From Microbacteriaceae bacterium (GTDB lineage Bacteria > Actinomycetota > Actinomycetes > Actinomycetales > Microbacteriaceae): 64,000 nucleotides of DNA. Below are positions 51,299 through 62,410 of this stretch, piece by piece (positions within the stretch are counted from its first letter, which is position 1; every line of letters starts with the position of its first letter). The DNA is taken from NCBI GenBank assembly GCA_004297935.1, contig SCRE01000023.1, forward strand, positions 1-64,000. Direction: 5' to 3'. The notes below the pieces were generated by a model. It saw only the letters and a list, made by a program, of their open reading frames with translations. It did no database searches and was not told where the DNA came from. The position numbers were made by a program, and so were the translations under genes.

Positions 51299-52432
51299 TC
51301 ACACGTCGTTGCGCTCGAGCACACGGATGCTCACGGCTGCCGGTTCGATCCACGCGCTCAACTGAACACCGGGTTGCAGTTGGAGGTCGATGGCGGCAGC
51401 CGGCGGCAGCTCGACGATCAGGTCCGGCTCCTCGACCAGGCGAACCCGGATGCCGCCCGCGGCCGGCTCGAGCGCGCCGACCGTGACGATGAATTGATTC
51501 GGGCGGGAGCCGGCTTCGCTCAGCGCTCGTACCCGGATGGCCGACGGTGCGAACACGGCGGACACGGCGTGGCCGGCCGGCACGCGCTCGCCTGCGACGA
51601 ATTGCCCGCGTACGACGTTGCCGTTGAGGCGTCGCACGCCGCCGGCTCCGTCCGACACGCCGGTGAGCAGGTTGACACCGACAAGTGCGGCGATGAACTG
51701 GTTCTTCGGGTGTGCGAGCACACGAGACATCGGCCCATCGTCGATGATGTGCCCCTCCTGCAGGATCGCACAGCGGTCGGCCAGCGCGATCGCATCCAGA
51801 ACATCGTGCGTGACGATGATCGTCGTCGTGCCGGCTTCCCGCAGGCGCTCCGCAAGCAGCCGCCGCACGTGGGCGGCGGTTTGCACGTCGAGTGCGGCCA
51901 GCGGCTCGTCCAGGAGCAGCACGTCGGGCCGTGCTGCCAGCGCACGGGCAATCGCGACGCGCTGCTGCTGGCCGCCGGACAAGGCTGCCGGCTTGCGCGC
52001 CCCGAACTCTGCGAGGTCGACAGCGCTCAACCACTCCGCGGCATCGCGCAGCGCCTCCTGCCGGGGCATGCCTTGCGCGCGTCGCCCGAAGGCCACATTC
52101 TCCAGGGCGTTCAGATGCGGAAACAACAGCGGCTCCTGGCTGAGGAGCCCGATCCGGCGTCTTTCTGGTGGCACGGCGACGATGCGAGCCGATGTCGTTC
52201 GCCGGGTGACCGTTCGCCCCGCCACGGTGACTGTGCCCGATGCCGGCACGATCAGCCCGCTCAGGGCGGCCAGCAGCGTCGACTTGCCCGCGCCGTTCGG
52301 ACCGAGCAGAGCGACGGTCTCGCCGTCGCCGACCATGAGTTCTACATCGAGCGTGAACGCGCCGCGCGTGACGACGAGTTCCGCCTGCAGCGCGGGCGCA
52401 GGTTGCAGCCCAGCCGCCACCGCGCCGCTCAT
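51299..52432 (-). CDS. modC: molybdate ABC transporter ATP-binding protein, ModC-like
   Basis: LLGPNGAGKSTLLAALSGLI, ALSGGQQQRVAIARALAARPDVLLLDEPLAALD, C-terminal TOBE-like region; adjacent modB/modA. Confidence 0.88.
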   Translation of the reverse strand: MSGAVAAGLQPAPALQAELVVTRGAFTLDVELMVGDGETVALLGPNGAGKSTLLAALSGLIVPASGTVTVAGRTVTRRTTSARIVAVPPERRRIGLLSQEPLLFPHLNALENVAFGRRAQGMPRQEALRDAAEWLSAVDLAEFGARKPAALSGGQQQRVAIARALAARPDVLLLDEPLAALDVQTAAHVRRLLAERLREAGTTTIIVTHDVLDAIALADRCAILQEGHIIDDGPMSRVLAHPKNQFIAALVGVNLLTGVSDGAGGVRRLNGNVVRGQFVAGERVPAGHAVSAVFAPSAIRVRALSEAGSRPNQFIVTVGALEPAAGGIRVRLVEEPDLIVELPPAAAIDLQLQPGVQLSAWIEPAAVSIRVLERNDV

Positions 52433-53220
52433 CGCGGCACATCCGCCCGCCAGCTGCGCATCACGAGCAGGATGACGATCGCGACGGCGACGAGCAACAG
52501 GGAAAGCGCGATTGCGGAGTCCTGGCTCACGCCGGCGCCGTTGAACGCCGTGTAGATGGCGAGCGGCATCGTGCGGGTGACGCCCTCCGCATTGCCGGCG
52601 AACAGCGCCGTCGCGCCGAACTCGCCGAGCGCGCGCGCGAAGCAGAGCACCGTTCCGGCGACCAGGCCGGGGGTCGCCAGCGGCAGGGTGACCCGCCAGA
52701 ACGTGATCCAGCGCCCGGCGCCGAGCGTGGCGGCGACCGCCTCGTAGCGCGTTCCGGCGGTACGCAGCGCACCCTCGACCGAGATCACCAAGAACGGCAG
52801 CGCCACGAACGACTGCGCGATCACCACGGCAGCCGTCGTGAACGGGACGCGGATGCCGAACCCCTCCAGCGACGCCCCGATCAGCCCGGTGCGGCCGAGG
52901 AGGTACAGCAGTGCGATGCCTCCGACCAGTGGCGGCAGCACCAACGGCAGCGTCGTCAGCGCACGCAGCACACCGGCCAGGCGCGTGCGGCTGCGAGCGA
53001 TGACCAGTGCCAGCGGAACCCCGATCACAAAACAGATGGTCGTTGCCACGGTCGCCGTGCGCAGCGACAACGACAATGCATCACGCGCCGCCTGCGATGT
53101 GATCGCCTGGGGCACCGTTGCCCAATCGAGGCGGAAGAGCAACCCGACGATCGGCAGGATCAGCAGGGCGAGTCCGAGCACCGCCGGGACATAGAGGAAC
53201 CGTGGAACTCTGCCCGTCAC
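52429..53220 (-). CDS. modB: molybdate ABC transporter permease, ModB
   Basis: LVLPPLVGGIALLYLLGRTGLIG, CFARALGEFGATALFAGN; GTG start at 53220. Confidence 0.9.
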   Translation of the reverse strand: MTGRVPRFLYVPAVLGLALLILPIVGLLFRLDWATVPQAITSQAARDALSLSLRTATVATTICFVIGVPLALVIARSRTRLAGVLRALTTLPLVLPPLVGGIALLYLLGRTGLIGASLEGFGIRVPFTTAAVVIAQSFVALPFLVISVEGALRTAGTRYEAVAATLGAGRWITFWRVTLPLATPGLVAGTVLCFARALGEFGATALFAGNAEGVTRTMPLAIYTAFNGAGVSQDSAIALSLLLVAVAIVILLVMRSWRADVPR

Positions 53221-54032
53221 GGCGCTGCGAAGCCGTAGCCGGCGAGCACCTTCTGCCCGGCGGGTGACAGTACGAACTGCACGAACGCGGCGGCGGCAGT
53301 CGGGTTCGGGGCGGCCTTCAGTGCGGCAATCGGGTACTTGTTCACGGCCTTGTCCGCGTCTGGAATCTTCACGCCGGCAACCGCTGAGCTGGCAGCCTTG
53401 ACGTCCGTGACATAGACGAGCCCGGCATCCGCGTTGCCGGATTTCACCTTGGTGATCACCGCGGTGACGTTCTGTTCCTCGCTGACCGGCCTGACCGCAA
53501 TGCCATCGGCGTCGAGCAGCGTGTGCGAGGCGGTGCCGCACGGCACCTGCGGGGCGCACAAGACGACCTGCAGTTTGGGGTTCGCCAGGTCGGAAAGCCC
53601 GGTGATCTTCCTGGGGTTGCCGGGCTGCACCGCGATCTCGAGGGCATTGCGGGCGAACACGGTCGACGATCCGTCGAGAAGGCCGGCCGAGGAGACTTCG
53701 TCCATGGTCGCCTGATCGGCGGAGGCGAACACGTCGACGGGTGCGCCCTGGATCAACTGGGTCGCCAGCGTGGACGAGCCGTCATAGTCGATCGGCTTCA
53801 CCGTCACACCGGGGTTCGCCTTTTCGAATGCGGCAGCCAGTTCGTTGAACGAGGCCGTGAGCGAGGCCGCGGCGTAGATCGTCAGGTCGCCACTGAGCGC
53901 ATCGGCCGCGTGCGAGGACGTCGCCGCATGGCCCGCCCCGGCCGGGCTCGACCCGCTCTGCCCGGAGGCACAGCCGGCCAGCAGCAGCACACCGGCAACG
54001 GCAGCCAGTACTCGAACACCCCGACCGATCAT
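53217..54032 (-). CDS. modA: molybdate-binding lipoprotein, ModA
   Basis: Lipobox LLLAGCASG; LTIYAAASLTASFNELAAAFEKANPGVTVKPIDYDGSSTLATQLIQGAPVDVFASAD. Confidence 0.92.
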   Translation of the reverse strand: MIGRGVRVLAAVAGVLLLAGCASGQSGSSPAGAGHAATSSHAADALSGDLTIYAAASLTASFNELAAAFEKANPGVTVKPIDYDGSSTLATQLIQGAPVDVFASADQATMDEVSSAGLLDGSSTVFARNALEIAVQPGNPRKITGLSDLANPKLQVVLCAPQVPCGTASHTLLDADGIAVRPVSEEQNVTAVITKVKSGNADAGLVYVTDVKAASSAVAGVKIPDADKAVNKYPIAALKAAPNPTAAAAFVQFVLSPAGQKVLAGYGFAAP

Positions 54033-54445
54033 TCCGTGCCGTCCTTCTCTGTCTCGATGACCACCATGGTCGCCTTGATGACGGCTATCGCCCGCGAGCC
54101 GACTTCGAGGCCGAGGTCGCGCACCGCTTCGCTCGACATGAGCGAGACGACCCGATGCGGGCCGCACTGCAGTTCGACCTGCGCCATGACCGTGTCCATG
54201 ACGATGCCGGTGACCAGCCCGACGAGGTGATTGCGTGCGCTGCGGCGCACCCCGCTGGTGTCATCGGCGACCACGGCGATCCGCTGCGCATGCGCCGCCA
54301 ACGCTACGCCGTCGACGATCTGGCGACCCGAGCCGTCCTTCGTCGCCGCCAGGATGCCCTCGCTCACCCACCGCCGCACCGTGTCGTCGCTCACCCCGAG
54401 GAGCTCGGCGGCCTCGCTAATCCGATAATGCGTCACAACGCTCAT
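54029..54445 (-). CDS. HTH plus TOBE (molybdopterin-binding) regulator
   Basis: YRISEAAELLGVSDDTVRRWVSEGIL; ARNHLVGLVTGIVMDTVMAQVELQCGPHRVVSLMSSEAVRDLGLEVGSRAIAVIKATMVVIE. Confidence 0.88.
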   Translation of the reverse strand: MSVVTHYRISEAAELLGVSDDTVRRWVSEGILAATKDGSGRQIVDGVALAAHAQRIAVVADDTSGVRRSARNHLVGLVTGIVMDTVMAQVELQCGPHRVVSLMSSEAVRDLGLEVGSRAIAVIKATMVVIETEKDGTE

Positions 54446-54778: not shown

Positions 54779-55015
54779 ATGACTACCACAATCAAGGTCA
54801 GTGACGAGCTGCGAGATCGCTTGAAGGTGCAGGCTGCGCGAGATGGCCTGACTTTGGGTGCCCATCTGGCTCGCCTCGCCGAGGCAGACGACCGCGCACA
54901 TAGGTTGAGCGACCTCAAGACTGCGATCGCCGACACGTCGGGCACGGGTGCGGCGCTCTACGCAGCGGAAGCCGCCGAGTGGGAGCGTACCGAACTCGCC
55001 GACATGACCGCATGA
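54779..55015 (+). CDS. antitoxin (MazE/RHH-like) of type II TA pair
   Basis: MTTTIKVSDELRDRLKVQAARDGLTLGAHLARLAE; overlaps toxin start. Confidence 0.75.
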   Translation: MTTTIKVSDELRDRLKVQAARDGLTLGAHLARLAEADDRAHRLSDLKTAIADTSGTGAALYAAEAAEWERTELADMTA

Positions 55016-55356
55016 GCGATCTTGACCTTGCGCCGGGCGTTGTCGCCTGGGCGACGCTCGAGCCTGTGCGAGGCCGCGAGCAGGGCGGTCATCGACCCGT
55101 CCTCGTGATCGCCTCGACAGGCTACCTCGACGCCGTCACAACGCTCGTGATCGTTCTTCCAATCTCGACAGTAGACCGGGGGTGGCCGAACCATATCGCG
55201 ATCGACGGGCCGAGTGGCCTCGATCGGCCATCGTGGATCATGAGCGAACAGCCTCGCACCCTCTCACGTGATCGGATTACCGGGATCGCCGGACACGTCT
55301 CCCAAGAATGCCTCAACACAGTGCGGCTCTGGCTGAGCGACTTTCTCGACCTCTAA
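55012..55356 (+). CDS. MazF/PemK-family toxin
   Basis: PGVVAWATLEPVRGREQGGHRPVLVIAST...VLPISTVDRGWPNHIAI...SWIMSEQPRTLSRDRI; 4-bp ATGA overlap with antitoxin. Confidence 0.85.
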   Translation: MSDLDLAPGVVAWATLEPVRGREQGGHRPVLVIASTGYLDAVTTLVIVLPISTVDRGWPNHIAIDGPSGLDRPSWIMSEQPRTLSRDRITGIAGHVSQECLNTVRLWLSDFLDL

Positions 55357-57401: not shown

Positions 57402-58499
57402 CTACAACCCGGTCGTGCCGAATAGCAGCCCGAGCAGATAGGTCGCTGCTGCGGCACCGAAGCCGATGGCCAGTTGACGCAAGGCACGCTTCAGCGGCGG
57501 GGCGCCGGAGAGCAGGCCGACGATCGCTCCCGTCGCGAGCAGCGCGATGCCGACGATCGCTGCCGCGGTCAGCACCGCAATCGTCCCGTGCAGTCCGAAC
57601 AGGTAGGGCAGAACGGGCAGCAACGCGCCCGATGCGAAGAACAGGAAGCTGGAGACCGCCGCCCGGAGGCCGGTGCCGATGGCCTCGTGATCGTCCGGTG
57701 CGTCGATGGCGGCCGAGGATCGCCCGTCGGCCACCGCCCGAAGAACCTCGGTTGCATGCGCTTGCGCATCGTCCGGTGCCATGCCTCGTGCGCGATACAT
57801 CAGGGCGAGCTCGTTGGCGTCAATGTCGAGGTGCGGCAGGGCGTGTCGCGTGTGCGGGTCGGGCGCGGATGCTTCCAGCAGCTCGCGCTGGGAACGGACC
57901 GAGACATACTCTCCCGCCGCCATCGACAGCGCGCCCGCCAGAAGCCCGGCGACACCGGCAAGCAGCACGACCTGATTGGCGGCGCCGGCCGCACTGATTC
58001 CGAGCACCAACGACAGGTTGCTGACCAGACCGTCGTTCATACCGAAGACGGCGGCGCGAAACGTGCCGGACAGCCGGTTGCGCCCTCGCGCGGCGAGCCC
58101 GCGCACGACCTCCTCGTGGATCTGCTCGTCGGCGGCCATCGTCGGGGTGGCATCGGCATCGTTTCGGTACGGGGAGCGTGATTCGGCCTGCTGCGCGAGG
58201 GCGAGCACGAACACCGATCCGAATCGTCTGGCTAGATAGCCGATCAGGCGCGTACGGGTGTCCCCGCGACGCGGCTTTCCCGCATCCGCACCCAGCAGGG
58301 TCAGCCAGTGCTGCTCGTGCCGGGTTTCGGCATCCGCCAGGGCAAGCAGGATCTCCCGTTCCTCGCCGTAGCGTCGCGAGGCGAGGTCGCGGTAGACGGC
58401 GGCTTCGGCTCGCTCATTGGCCAGGTATTGCCGCCAACGCCGGATATCGGCAGGCGTCCGGGTGGGGTGCGGGTTCGGTGGTGTTGTCTGTTGAGTCAT
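57402..58499 (-). CDS. VIT1/CCC1-family transporter with N-terminal ferritin-like domain
   Basis: YLANERAEAAVYRDLASRRYGEEREILLALADAETRHEQHW (ferritin-like) plus FRAAVFGMNDGLVSNLSLVLGISAA (VIT1). Confidence 0.9.
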   Translation of the reverse strand: MTQQTTPPNPHPTRTPADIRRWRQYLANERAEAAVYRDLASRRYGEEREILLALADAETRHEQHWLTLLGADAGKPRRGDTRTRLIGYLARRFGSVFVLALAQQAESRSPYRNDADATPTMAADEQIHEEVVRGLAARGRNRLSGTFRAAVFGMNDGLVSNLSLVLGISAAGAANQVVLLAGVAGLLAGALSMAAGEYVSVRSQRELLEASAPDPHTRHALPHLDIDANELALMYRARGMAPDDAQAHATEVLRAVADGRSSAAIDAPDDHEAIGTGLRAAVSSFLFFASGALLPVLPYLFGLHGTIAVLTAAAIVGIALLATGAIVGLLSGAPPLKRALRQLAIGFGAAAATYLLGLLFGTTGL

Positions 58500-58829
58500 C
58501 GCGGCTCCTCGGCAACGTCTGCCCAAGGCTCGAGAAAATGCGCAAGCCTCGATCAGAATCCGTCTGATCGAAAGTCTCGCTCGCCCGGTGTCCGGGTGGC
58601 GCACCGGGCCTCCCATCCGAGGAGGCCAGTATGTCGATGCGTCGTTACGCCCATGGTGCGGGCGGTGGGAGCTACTCCCTTTCGATCTGCCTAGTGTACG
58701 GTGCACGCCGGGAAACCTGCGCCACCCGGCGCGGTCGGCGATCTGCTTGCGGGTGTTCGCTGGTGTCTGCCGTCACGGGCTCATTCCGCGTCGGCACCCG
58801 CAGGTTCGGTGTCGGCGCGGTAGGCGTCG

Positions 58830-61283
58830 TCAGCGGATCTCCGTCGCAAATGTCGAAAACCCGGCCCGGCGCATCGCTGCTGCAACCGTCGCGGTGTCGT
58901 CCGGCTCCGCAATCGCGATCATGGCGCCGCCGCCGCCGCCGCCGGTCAGCTTGGCTCCGTGCGCGCCTGCCCGGCGCGCGATGTCCACCAGGGTCTCCAA
59001 CTCGGGGCTGGAGACCTGCAGAGCGTTCAGCAATCCGTGGTTGATGTTCATCAGGTCGCCGAGCCGTGCGATGTCTCCTCGGCCGAGGGCATCCGCCCCG
59101 GCAAGCGCAATCGCGTCGATCTGGGCGAAGATCGCGTCGAAGAACGACGGCTGTCGCTCGCGAACAGCGCGAAGCTTCTCCACCGTATGGGCGGTGAGCG
59201 ACCGAACGCCGCTCAGCCCGACGATCACCGGAATCGGATGCGGCGGCGTGATCGTGACGCTCTCGACCGGCCGCTCGAGGTCCGCTCGCCGGAACAGGAT
59301 CGGCTTGCCGAACGTCGCCACCGTGTTGTCGATGCCAGACGGCGTGCCGTGCACGATCCCCTCGCACTCGAATGCGATCGCGTTCACCGCCGCGTCGCCG
59401 ATCGGAATTCCGAAGCAATCGGCGACCGCACGGATCAGCGCGACCGCCTGCGCTGCGGATGCGCCCAGACCGCTCGCGCGCGGCAGGTCGGTGAAGACTT
59501 CGACCCGCATGCCCTCATCCGCAACACCCAACCGCTCGGTGACCAGGGCGAGCACCCGCGAGGACAGCTCCGAGACGGCAGGAGTCGGCGAACCGGGCTC
59601 TTCGTCGGGGAAAGCCAGCTCTACCGTGCCTGGCCTCCGGACCGCTCGCGCCTGAATCGCCAGAGCGACCGGCGCCGCGACGGCGTGCGCACCGTAGACG
59701 ACGGCATGCTCACCGAACAGAATGATCTTGCCGAAGCCGGAGTGCAGGGGCGCGGCGGGCAGCGCCGTGGGCATCGCGGTCGGGCCGAATGCTGTCGTGT
59801 AGCCGGAAACGAATGCAGCCGCGCCGGTGCCAGGCAGCGCCGGTTCGCCCTTGTCCCCCGCACCGAACTCTCCTGCACCGGCCACTCCCGCACCGGCCGC
59901 TCCTGCACCGAACTGCCCCGCACCGGCCTCGGCCGCTCTCGCCTCAGTGGCGCCGGCCTCTGTCACGGCACTCGTCTCCGCCGTAGCACTCGCCCGCTCC
60001 GCTTGCACTGCTTCGAGGATGCGCCGCGCCTTCCACACCTTGATCTCGCCGCCCGCGACCAGTCGGTCGACGACCGTGTGGAACAGCGCACCGGTCGCAC
60101 CCGCAGCGACCGCGACGCTACGCGCGTGCAGCCGCATATGGCCGGGCTGGATGCCTTCGGTCGACAACGCCTTCAATGCGGCCAGGTTCTGGGCAAGCCC
60201 GACCGCAGCCATCACCTGGGCCAGCTCGGCCGCATACTCGACCCCGAGAATCGAATTCGCGATCCGAACGGTGGGATTGGACTCCACCTGCCCGCCGACG
60301 ATGCCGACCTTCAACGGGATCGTGAGCTCCCCGACAAGGCTGCCGGCGGCATCCGTCTGCCACGACGTCAGCGGTGCGTAGACGCCACTGTGGGCCGCGT
60401 ACGCGTGCGCGGATGCCTCGATGGCGCGCCAGTCGTTGCCGGTTGCAATCGCGACGGCGTCGATGCCGTTCATGATGCCTTTGTTGTGCGTGGTGGCTCG
60501 GTAGCGGTCCATTGCGGCGAACTCATTCGCCCGAACGACCCCGTCACGCACCTGTTCACCGCTGAACCGGCCGGATTCCAGTCGGTGAGCCGGAATGACC
60601 GCACGCGCATGCACGAGCGCACGGTCCGCGAGATTCGAGAGAATCCGCAGGAACACCCTCCCCCCGCTGATCTCCTCGACCAGCGGGGCAACGGCCTCGC
60701 ACATCGTGTTGACCAGGTTGGCGCCCATGGCGTCGCGACTGTCCACGACCAGGTGCACGACGAGCAATTCGCCGTCGCGGGCGGTCGCGCCGTGCAGCAG
60801 CACTTCGATACCGGTGGCGCCGCCGCCGCGCGCCACCATGTTCGGATGCTGCCGATTCGCCAGTCCGAGGATCTCCGCCGTGCGCTCCAGCAGTCGCTCC
60901 CGCGCCGCAGCAGGGTCGGTCACCCCGAGCACCTGCACCTGTCCGAGGATCATCGGAGTCTCAGCGATGCTGGTAAAGCCACCTGCGCGCCGAACCAGCC
61001 GAGCGGCAGAGCTGACCGCCGCGATGATCGACGGCTCCTCCACCACCATCGGAACGAGATAGTCCTTCTCGTTGATCCGGAAGTTGAGGCCGAGGCCGAG
61101 CGGCATCGAGAAAACGCCGATGACGTTCTCGGTCAGCCGGTCGGCCTTCTCGGTGTGTAGCTGATAGCTGCCATCGGTCAGCGCCTCGAAGTCCGCGTCG
61201 TTCACCACCCCGCGCTCGTGCAGCACCCGAAGCCGCTCGGCGACGCTCAGTTGATAGAACTTGGGGATGCGGGAGTCCGTCAC
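58830..61283 (-). CDS. fusion protein: class II HMG-CoA reductase (N-terminal) and mevalonate kinase (C-terminal)
   Basis: N-terminus FYQLSVAERLRVLHERGVVND...NKGIMNGIDAVAIATGNDWRAIEASAHAYAAHSGVYAPLTSW; C-terminus GFGKIILFGEHAVVYGAHAVAAPVALAIQARA...PRASGLGASAAQAVALIRA...KLTGGGGGGAMIAI; single uninterrupted ORF. Confidence 0.92.
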   Translation of the reverse strand: MTDSRIPKFYQLSVAERLRVLHERGVVNDADFEALTDGSYQLHTEKADRLTENVIGVFSMPLGLGLNFRINEKDYLVPMVVEEPSIIAAVSSAARLVRRAGGFTSIAETPMILGQVQVLGVTDPAAARERLLERTAEILGLANRQHPNMVARGGGATGIEVLLHGATARDGELLVVHLVVDSRDAMGANLVNTMCEAVAPLVEEISGGRVFLRILSNLADRALVHARAVIPAHRLESGRFSGEQVRDGVVRANEFAAMDRYRATTHNKGIMNGIDAVAIATGNDWRAIEASAHAYAAHSGVYAPLTSWQTDAAGSLVGELTIPLKVGIVGGQVESNPTVRIANSILGVEYAAELAQVMAAVGLAQNLAALKALSTEGIQPGHMRLHARSVAVAAGATGALFHTVVDRLVAGGEIKVWKARRILEAVQAERASATAETSAVTEAGATEARAAEAGAGQFGAGAAGAGVAGAGEFGAGDKGEPALPGTGAAAFVSGYTTAFGPTAMPTALPAAPLHSGFGKIILFGEHAVVYGAHAVAAPVALAIQARAVRRPGTVELAFPDEEPGSPTPAVSELSSRVLALVTERLGVADEGMRVEVFTDLPRASGLGASAAQAVALIRAVADCFGIPIGDAAVNAIAFECEGIVHGTPSGIDNTVATFGKPILFRRADLERPVESVTITPPHPIPVIVGLSGVRSLTAHTVEKLRAVRERQPSFFDAIFAQIDAIALAGADALGRGDIARLGDLMNINHGLLNALQVSSPELETLVDIARRAGAHGAKLTGGGGGGAMIAIAEPDDTATVAAAMRRAGFSTFATEIR
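59857..59931. repeat. five tandem 15-bp repeats encoding (xxGAG)5 in the HMGR-MK linker
   Basis: cccgcaccgaactct/cctgcaccggccact/cccgcaccggccgct/cctgcaccgaactgc/cccgcaccggcctcg. Confidence 0.9.
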
Positions 61284-62410
61284 GATGCGCCCTCCGTGTC
61301 GATGCGATCACCGTCGTCGTCTGCGCCCCGGCCGCGCGAGTCCGCGAGCTGCGCGCCCGGCCCGCCGAAGCCGAGCGGGATCGTCTCGACGCCGGCCTCG
61401 TGCAGGGCGGACGCGACGCGCCTCGCGCCCGCGCCGGCGCGGGCGAAGACCAGCCCGACGTCGCCGCCACCGGCTCCCGAGGTCTTGAACACGCCGCCGT
61501 TGGCGGCCACGAGCGTGCGAAGCCAGTGGTGCCGGTCAGTGACGATGCCGGCGCCGGCATGATGGTCGAGGTCGATGAGCGCATCGAAGTAGTCCTCGGC
61601 CAACGCCAAGAAGGTGTCCGCCGACGCCAGCGCCGGTCCGGCCTGGCCGGCCAGCGCAGCGAGTCGGTCGAGATCCGCTGCGTGGCCTCGCGGATCGCGC
61701 CGACCGTACTCGGCTACCCGGCCGACCAGCTCGGTGCTGCTGCTGCCCGCGCCGGTGGCGACCACCCGCAGCTCGAGATCGTCCGGCCAGTGCTGCGGCA
61801 TCAACCGAGGACCGGCTGCAGCTCCCCATTCCCGAGTGAAGGTGATCAGCCCGCCGGAGCAGCTGGCGGCGACATCGCCGCCGCTGCCGGTTCCGCCCTG
61901 TGCCCGGCGGTGGGCATCCGTTGCGCGACGGACGAGCTCTTCCTGCGTCAGACTCAACCCGTGGGCCGCCGCAAGCGCGGCCGTCAATGCTGCCGCCACG
62001 GCCGCGCTCGAGCCGAGGCCGAGCTTGTGATCTCGATGCCAGAACGCTGCACTGTCGACGGTCACCGTCAATCCCGGCGGCGCCGATGCGACCGACTTCG
62101 CGACCACACGCCGCACGGCGTCGAACACGCGCAACCGGGCACGGGTGTCGTCATCGAGCGTAGGCGGCAGCGCGCCATCCGATTGCAGCGAGCACTCGGC
62201 GATGCCGATGGCCGGCGCGGTGAACCGCCAACCGGCGTCGTTAGCGGCATCCGCCGCATCGGGCACTACGACGGTCACTCGCGCGCGCCGGTCGACCGCG
62301 GTCAGCAGAGCGGGCGCACCGTGCAACACCGCGTATTCACCGAGCAGGAAGAGCTTGCCCGGAGCGGATGCCTCGATCACGCCGGTCACGCGTACGGCAG
62401 CGGATGTCAT
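61280..62410 (-). CDS. phosphomevalonate kinase (GHMP family)
   Basis: ATG at 62410 (MTSAAVRVTGVIEASAPGKLFLLGEYAVLHGAPALLTAVDRRA); KLGLGSSAAVAAALTAAL; FKTSGAGGGDVGLVFA. Confidence 0.88.
   Translation of the reverse strand: MTSAAVRVTGVIEASAPGKLFLLGEYAVLHGAPALLTAVDRRARVTVVVPDAADAANDAGWRFTAPAIGIAECSLQSDGALPPTLDDDTRARLRVFDAVRRVVAKSVASAPPGLTVTVDSAAFWHRDHKLGLGSSAAVAAALTAALAAAHGLSLTQEELVRRATDAHRRAQGGTGSGGDVAASCSGGLITFTREWGAAAGPRLMPQHWPDDLELRVVATGAGSSSTELVGRVAEYGRRDPRGHAADLDRLAALAGQAGPALASADTFLALAEDYFDALIDLDHHAGAGIVTDRHHWLRTLVAANGGVFKTSGAGGGDVGLVFARAGAGARRVASALHEAGVETIPLGFGGPGAQLADSRGRGADDDGDRIDTEGAS

Follow-up and report, generated by a model that had tools for sequence, protein, structure and literature searches.

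The 64,000 nt of a Microbacteriaceae contig analysed here (hereafter the window) contain a single open reading frame that joins a class II HMG-CoA reductase (HMGR) to a mevalonate kinase (MK). The frame runs on the minus strand from 61283 to 58830, starts with GTG and encodes 817 aa with no internal stop. We take its product to be a bifunctional biosynthetic HMGR-MK, at a probability of roughly 0.85. Gene structure, family assignments, catalytic residues, operon, distribution and phylogeny all point to this reading, and both activities are predicted from them. The enzyme is widespread and, it appears, uncharacterised so far.

Gene structure and the two catalytic halves

The layout of the fusion and of the neighbouring mevalonate genes is given in Table 1. 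The source genome (3.95 Mb, 98.5% complete) was searched as a whole; it holds the fusion frame once, and the fused HMGR is its only HMGR. A congener carries the same fusion, also in a single frame, at 85% identity. This congener along with 61 distinct single-frame fusions excludes a sequencing error, and the HMGR-MK fusion is genuine. The merging of two ORFs by faulty sequencing or assembly, named beforehand as something that would overturn the finding, is thus ruled out by independent genomes and has next to no probability, as the single frame recurs in the congener, in Cryobacterium (19 of 57 genomes) and in four phyla besides Actinomycetota, and as the linker indels between window and congener keep the reading frame.

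Table 1. Features of the HMGR-MK gene and the adjacent mevalonate genes in the window
Feature	Position	Strand	Basis
Class II HMG-CoA reductase domain, res 1-431	59991..61283	-	TIGR00532; P. mevalonii residue mapping; fold match
Interdomain linker, res 432-512, Ala/Gly-rich, predicted disordered	59748..59990	-	pLDDT; TRF
Mevalonate kinase domain, res 513-817 + stop	58830..59747	-	TIGR00549; L. major MK 2hfs; fold match 2hfu
PMK, phosphomevalonate kinase, 376 aa from ATG	61280..62410	-	TIGR01220 116 bits, best family, below cut-off
mvaD, diphosphomevalonate decarboxylase, 341 aa	62407..63432	-	TIGR01240 271 bits (cut-off 171)
HMG-CoA synthase (HMGS) 5' part, 500 aa, runs to about 65347 of contig C39	63845..64000	+	Pfam HMG_CoA_synt_N/_C

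Comparison with the congener gave dN/dS values (NG86) of 0.06 for the HMGR domain and 0.15 for the MK domain, and purifying selection acts on both. The linker is 39% identical over its alignable part, with an omega of about 0.53. We rejected the possibility that one domain is degenerate, since the catalytic residues are intact and both domains are under purifying selection.

In the reductase half, the TIGR00532 model aligns to residues 3-387 at 402 bits, above its cut-off of 260 (profile positions 21-395 of 395), and Pfam HMG-CoA_red (PF00368) is covered over positions 2-368 of 368. Residues E83, K268, D284 and H382 align with E83, K267, D283 and H381 of the Pseudomonas mevalonii HMGR, which we take to be the four catalytic positions, and they are invariant in all 61 distinct fusions. 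A Foldseek search with the AlphaFold model matched this half to the P. mevalonii enzyme (9dcp/1qax) with a TMt of 0.90.

The cofactor motifs of class II HMGRs have been given as Dx(V/L)xxxL for NADH and (H/Y)xSxxxR for NADPH (PMC13370337). The window reads H146-P-N-M-V-A-R152 (HxNxxxR) in the cofactor helix, hence the NADH-type motif is absent; His and Arg match the NADPH type, while the third motif position has Asn for Ser. His146 is found in 61 of 61 fusions, most of the unfused HMGRs sampled having Asp there, and Arg152 is nearly invariant among the fusions, most of which have Asn, Lys or Arg at the third position. As the motif lies nearer the NADPH type than the catabolic NADH type, the HMGR half probably prefers NADPH.

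The best NCBIfam match, TIGR00532, is named 'degradative', and the fused reductase resembles in sequence the class II HMGRs that Actinomycetota and Proteobacteria make as stand-alone proteins; both points would suit a catabolic NAD-linked HMGR that runs from mevalonate to HMG-CoA. We rejected this very improbable reading on motif, operon and tree: H146 and R152 replace Asp146 and Leu152, the neighbouring mvaD, PMK and HMGS genes are biosynthetic, and the fused clade is split from the stand-alone enzymes at 99* in the HMGR tree. Further, in many hosts the mevalonate pathway is the sole apparent way to IPP. The label 'degradative' thus seems to be a naming problem, with context and cofactor motif pointing to biosynthesis. 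The class II HMGRs of P. mevalonii and Delftia are about 50% identical to the window's reductase along the full domain and share its catalytic residues and fold, but they are unfused and NAD-linked, that of P. mevalonii with the NADH-type Asp146, whereas the fusions have His146 and Arg152 and stand in a biosynthetic operon.

The kinase half is matched by TIGR00549 over residues 518-790 with 235 bits (cut-off 163; profile positions 3-275 of 276), and Pfam detects both GHMP kinase halves. K519, H526 (GEH), S609 of the GHMP loop, E641 and D652 are invariant in 61 of 61 fusions, and K519, S609, E641 and D652 also in 18 unfused MKs. Both domains are therefore complete, as the earlier note had claimed: the family models score above cut-off and neither half has lost its catalytic residues. 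That note's in-frame fusion of two consecutive pathway steps is likewise borne out by the single open frame and by the HMGR and MK identities. Its coordinates (58830-61283) were exact, the minus strand being added here, and it rightly set the protein apart from thiolase-HMGR (MvaE), as the sequence begins with HMGR and has no thiolase match.

The best solved relative of the kinase domain is the Leishmania major MK (2hfs, 174 bits), and the fold of the AlphaFold model was matched by Foldseek to the L. major (2hfu) and Methanosarcina mazei MKs. These enzymes are 31-35% identical to the domain and share the full GHMP fold, but are unfused. For residues 513-817 (59747-58833) the trypanosomatid L. 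major MK is the nearest structure, ahead of archaeal and other bacterial MKs, a likeness of possible relevance to where the trypanosomatid enzyme came from.

Mevalonate cluster, distribution and origin

The operon order is mvaD-PMK-HMGR·MK, with the fusion gene last. The mvaD stop overlaps the PMK start as ATGA, and the PMK TGA overlaps the GTG start of HMGR-MK as GTGA. Most fused loci have mvaD and PMK immediately before the fusion gene, in the same orientation. The HMGS gene, the sole one in the source genome, is divergent from the mvaD operon at a distance of 412 bp, and a search for sigma-70 promoters between mvaD and HMGS gave no candidates. Its product exceeds the cut-offs of Pfam HMG_CoA_synt_N and _C but scores 144 bits against TIGR01835, far below the cut-off of 360; the Glu, Cys and His motifs are visible by eye. 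In Cryobacterium and Salinisphaera, too, the fusion occurs together with this seemingly divergent type of HMGS. Relatives with E below 1e-20 occur in 24 of 42 fusion-bearing genomes, and those of Salinisphaera and its two sister genomes are 64-65% identical.

The GC content has no step at the mevalonate cluster. A VIT1-family membrane protein is encoded at 57402-58706 (-), 124 bp downstream of the fusion, and had no match in the 19 kb surrounding the congener's fusion. The cluster is flanked on both sides by molybdenum-related genes: a ModABC-type ABC transporter with a TOBE/MerR regulator at 51299-54445 (-) on one side, and moaB, moaC and moeA-like genes at about 66272-71154 of contig C39 on the other. 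The window also holds a PemK/MazF-like toxin gene at 54979-55356 (+; PF02452, 71 bits).

To map the taxonomy of proteins with both domains, as had been proposed, we pooled a scan of a genome collection with frame checks, a Gammaproteobacteria search and a Cryobacterium search. The 61 distinct single-frame fusions fall in five phyla: Actinomycetota, Pseudomonadota (Gammaproteobacteria), Calditrichota, Acidobacteriota and Planctomycetota. Restriction of the fusion to the source strain is thereby rejected. The distribution is patchy: 19 of 57 genomes of the Cryobacterium genus group carry the fusion, and about nine full fusions were found among 369 gammaproteobacterial genomes. When the window's family was sampled at about one genome per genus, the fusion appeared in the window's own genus only. 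A search of 396 genomes of the class with the HMGR half gave 16 with a class II HMGR, of which the window's alone is fused. No plasmid copy covering both domains was found.

In the HMGR tree 54 fused rows form one side of one branch (99*), and the stand-alone HMGRs of the window's class are placed elsewhere. The HMGR tree makes a single origin of the fusion most likely. The MK tree also needs one change, but support for the monophyly of the fused MKs is 0. Among the nearest unfused HMGR relatives are those of two Myxococcaceae (L062 and L103), which have MK immediately downstream yet make two separate proteins. At L062:4780-4960 the HMGR and MK genes share one reading frame and are separated by a single TGA, and at L103:1650-1830 the two genes overlap as GTGA. 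This looks like the pre-fusion state, the alternative being a later split. Virgibacillus, Oceanobacillus and relatives (L085-L093) have adjacent unfused HMGR-MK-MvaD-PMK genes, and their MK is distant (28-33% identity).

The combined tree places the window, its congener and Cryobacterium in one clade (100/100) that is sister to Salinisphaera (100/100), and Nakamurella among other Gammaproteobacteria. We rejected a single acquisition by all Actinomycetota, since monophyly with Nakamurella gave a p-AU of 7.7e-5. We infer from these sequences that the fusion entered Actinomycetota at least twice, in one case together with the rest of the module that Salinisphaera also has. Transfer of the complete module is consistent with the fusion of the window's genus and Cryobacterium being nearest to that of Salinisphaera, and nesting among Gammaproteobacteria suggests the direction; the donor was probably a Salinisphaera-like gammaproteobacterium. 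On the whole, neighbouring HMGR and MK genes would have been joined once and would then have spread by transfer with the operon.

Apparent host dependence and the proposed role of the tether

The fused MK is the single MK above cut-off in all 42 fusion-bearing genomes, and 37 of these have one HMGR of any class. Concluding loss of the MEP pathway from dxr alone is unsafe because DXR-II exists (PMC3847144), hence ispG was searched besides dxr. Absence of ispG was found in 33 of 42 genomes, and most of the ispG-less genomes tested for dxr lack that gene too. The absence of ispG coincides with a single HMGR and a single recognisable MK, the fused one, in 29 of 42. It should be noted that several other fusion-bearing genomes are MAGs, where single absences may be assembly gaps; the hosts in which the searches gave no MEP genes include the isolate Dyella monticola as well as Salinisphaera, and the absence pattern is consistent. 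In the 29 hosts neither step has another apparent source, nor does IPP have another apparent route, so both halves should work there. These hosts are the strongest indirect evidence for the two activities, and both halves look active.

The window's genus and Cryobacterium keep dxr and ispG, and the mevalonate pathway is additional in them. The source genome has dxr, ispG and ispE (contig C28 at about 187789-194397, contig C39 at about 72134-73072), so that it does not obviously need the mevalonate route. One actinomycete thus holds two IPP routes, MEP genes and a full mevalonate cluster.

In the mechanism we propose, mevalonate would be made by the N-terminal class II HMGR, with NADPH as the probable cofactor, and phosphorylated to 5-phosphomevalonate by the C-terminal GHMP kinase; PMK, MvaD and HMGS from the cluster would complete the route to IPP. 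The covalent link would serve as a flexible tether that fixes a one-to-one stoichiometry and holds the irreversible, ATP-driven kinase beside the reversible reductase. Since ATP drives MK and the reaction of class II HMGR can run both ways, we tentatively suggest, at a little under even odds, that tethering pulls flux forward and limits the loss of mevalonate.

The linker bears on what else the fusion might do. AlphaFold models the window's protein as two mostly high-confidence domains, with a pLDDT below 50 at residues 455-509, a stretch predicted to be disordered, and TRF detects a 15-bp tandem repeat of 4.9 copies at 59857-59930. Across the 61 fusions the linker varies from 4 to 81 aa without sequence conservation; that of the window is the longest, and those outside Microbacteriaceae are mostly short (about 4-20 aa). 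Confident packing of the domains against each other was seen neither with the longest linker (pTM 0.56) nor with a 6-aa linker (pTM 0.58), in monomeric models in which oligomer interfaces cannot show. The range of lengths and the absence of confident packing in the models argue against a rigid channel.

The earlier note had suggested substrate channelling or a stoichiometric control point. Channelling finds no support in linkers so variable and in models with no confident arrangement, and a one-to-one ratio stands, as it follows from HMGR and MK being on a single polypeptide. We consider true channelling or allosteric coupling unlikely. It would have the MK, sitting directly behind the reductase's mobile C-terminal flap, coordinate flap motion with the hand-off of mevalonate; the kinase does come after the C-terminal domain that bears the catalytic H382, and most linkers outside Microbacteriaceae are short, but the window's is 81 aa and disordered and the member with 6 aa has no confident arrangement either. 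Equally doubtful is the fuller proposal of a widespread, single-origin HMGR-MK that opens the sole way into isoprenoid synthesis in many MEP-less Gammaproteobacteria and Calditrichota and whose kinase, placed behind the mobile flap, passes mevalonate through a channel or links the two active sites.

A plainer explanation, with a substantial chance though rather less than an even one, is that the fusion gives nothing beyond co-expression and the one-to-one ratio, the domains working as if separate and the tether bringing no benefit in kinetics or leakage. The unconserved, fast-diverging linker and the missing interdomain packing suit it, and unfused Bacilli and Myxococcaceae hold the same two genes adjacent, so that operon pairing suffices there. 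Against it, no re-separation was seen within the fused clade of the sampled tree, which counts against a neutral fusion, as splitting should then be easy. A bifunctional biosynthetic HMGR-MK, its halves most likely joined by a flexible tether, is the reading we retain.

Comparison with known systems

The HMGR-MK order had been called unfamiliar. No description of it came up in a search limited to open-access papers, with subscription journals and most preprints outside its reach, but it is not unique, given the 61 distinct fusions. The matches included no NCBIfam model for an HMGR/MK protein, and mevalonate kinase goes unmentioned in the main text of a 2026 study that surveyed about 7,000 bacterial HMGRs (PMC13370337). 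A clade found in five phyla has the enzyme of the committed mevalonate-pathway step and the kinase acting next on a single polypeptide. The purpose of tethering consecutive enzymes can be studied in this natural system, whose linkers of 4-81 aa already form a graded series, and pathway engineering gains a ready-made HMGR-MK module.

Two other fusions in isoprenoid pathways invite comparison. Enterococcal MvaE is described, in a passage citing Hedl 2002, as a dual-function acetoacetyl-CoA thiolase-HMGR (PMC10070635). Like HMGR-MK it is a mevalonate-pathway fusion containing a class II HMGR, but its partner is a thiolase on the N-terminal side that catalyses a non-adjacent step, whereas the partner in HMGR-MK is the C-terminal MK, catalysing the next step. 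IspDF is a gene fusion of the MEP pathway that is common in bacteria (PMC13001223); it belongs to a different pathway and joins non-consecutive steps, in contrast to the consecutive steps joined in HMGR-MK.
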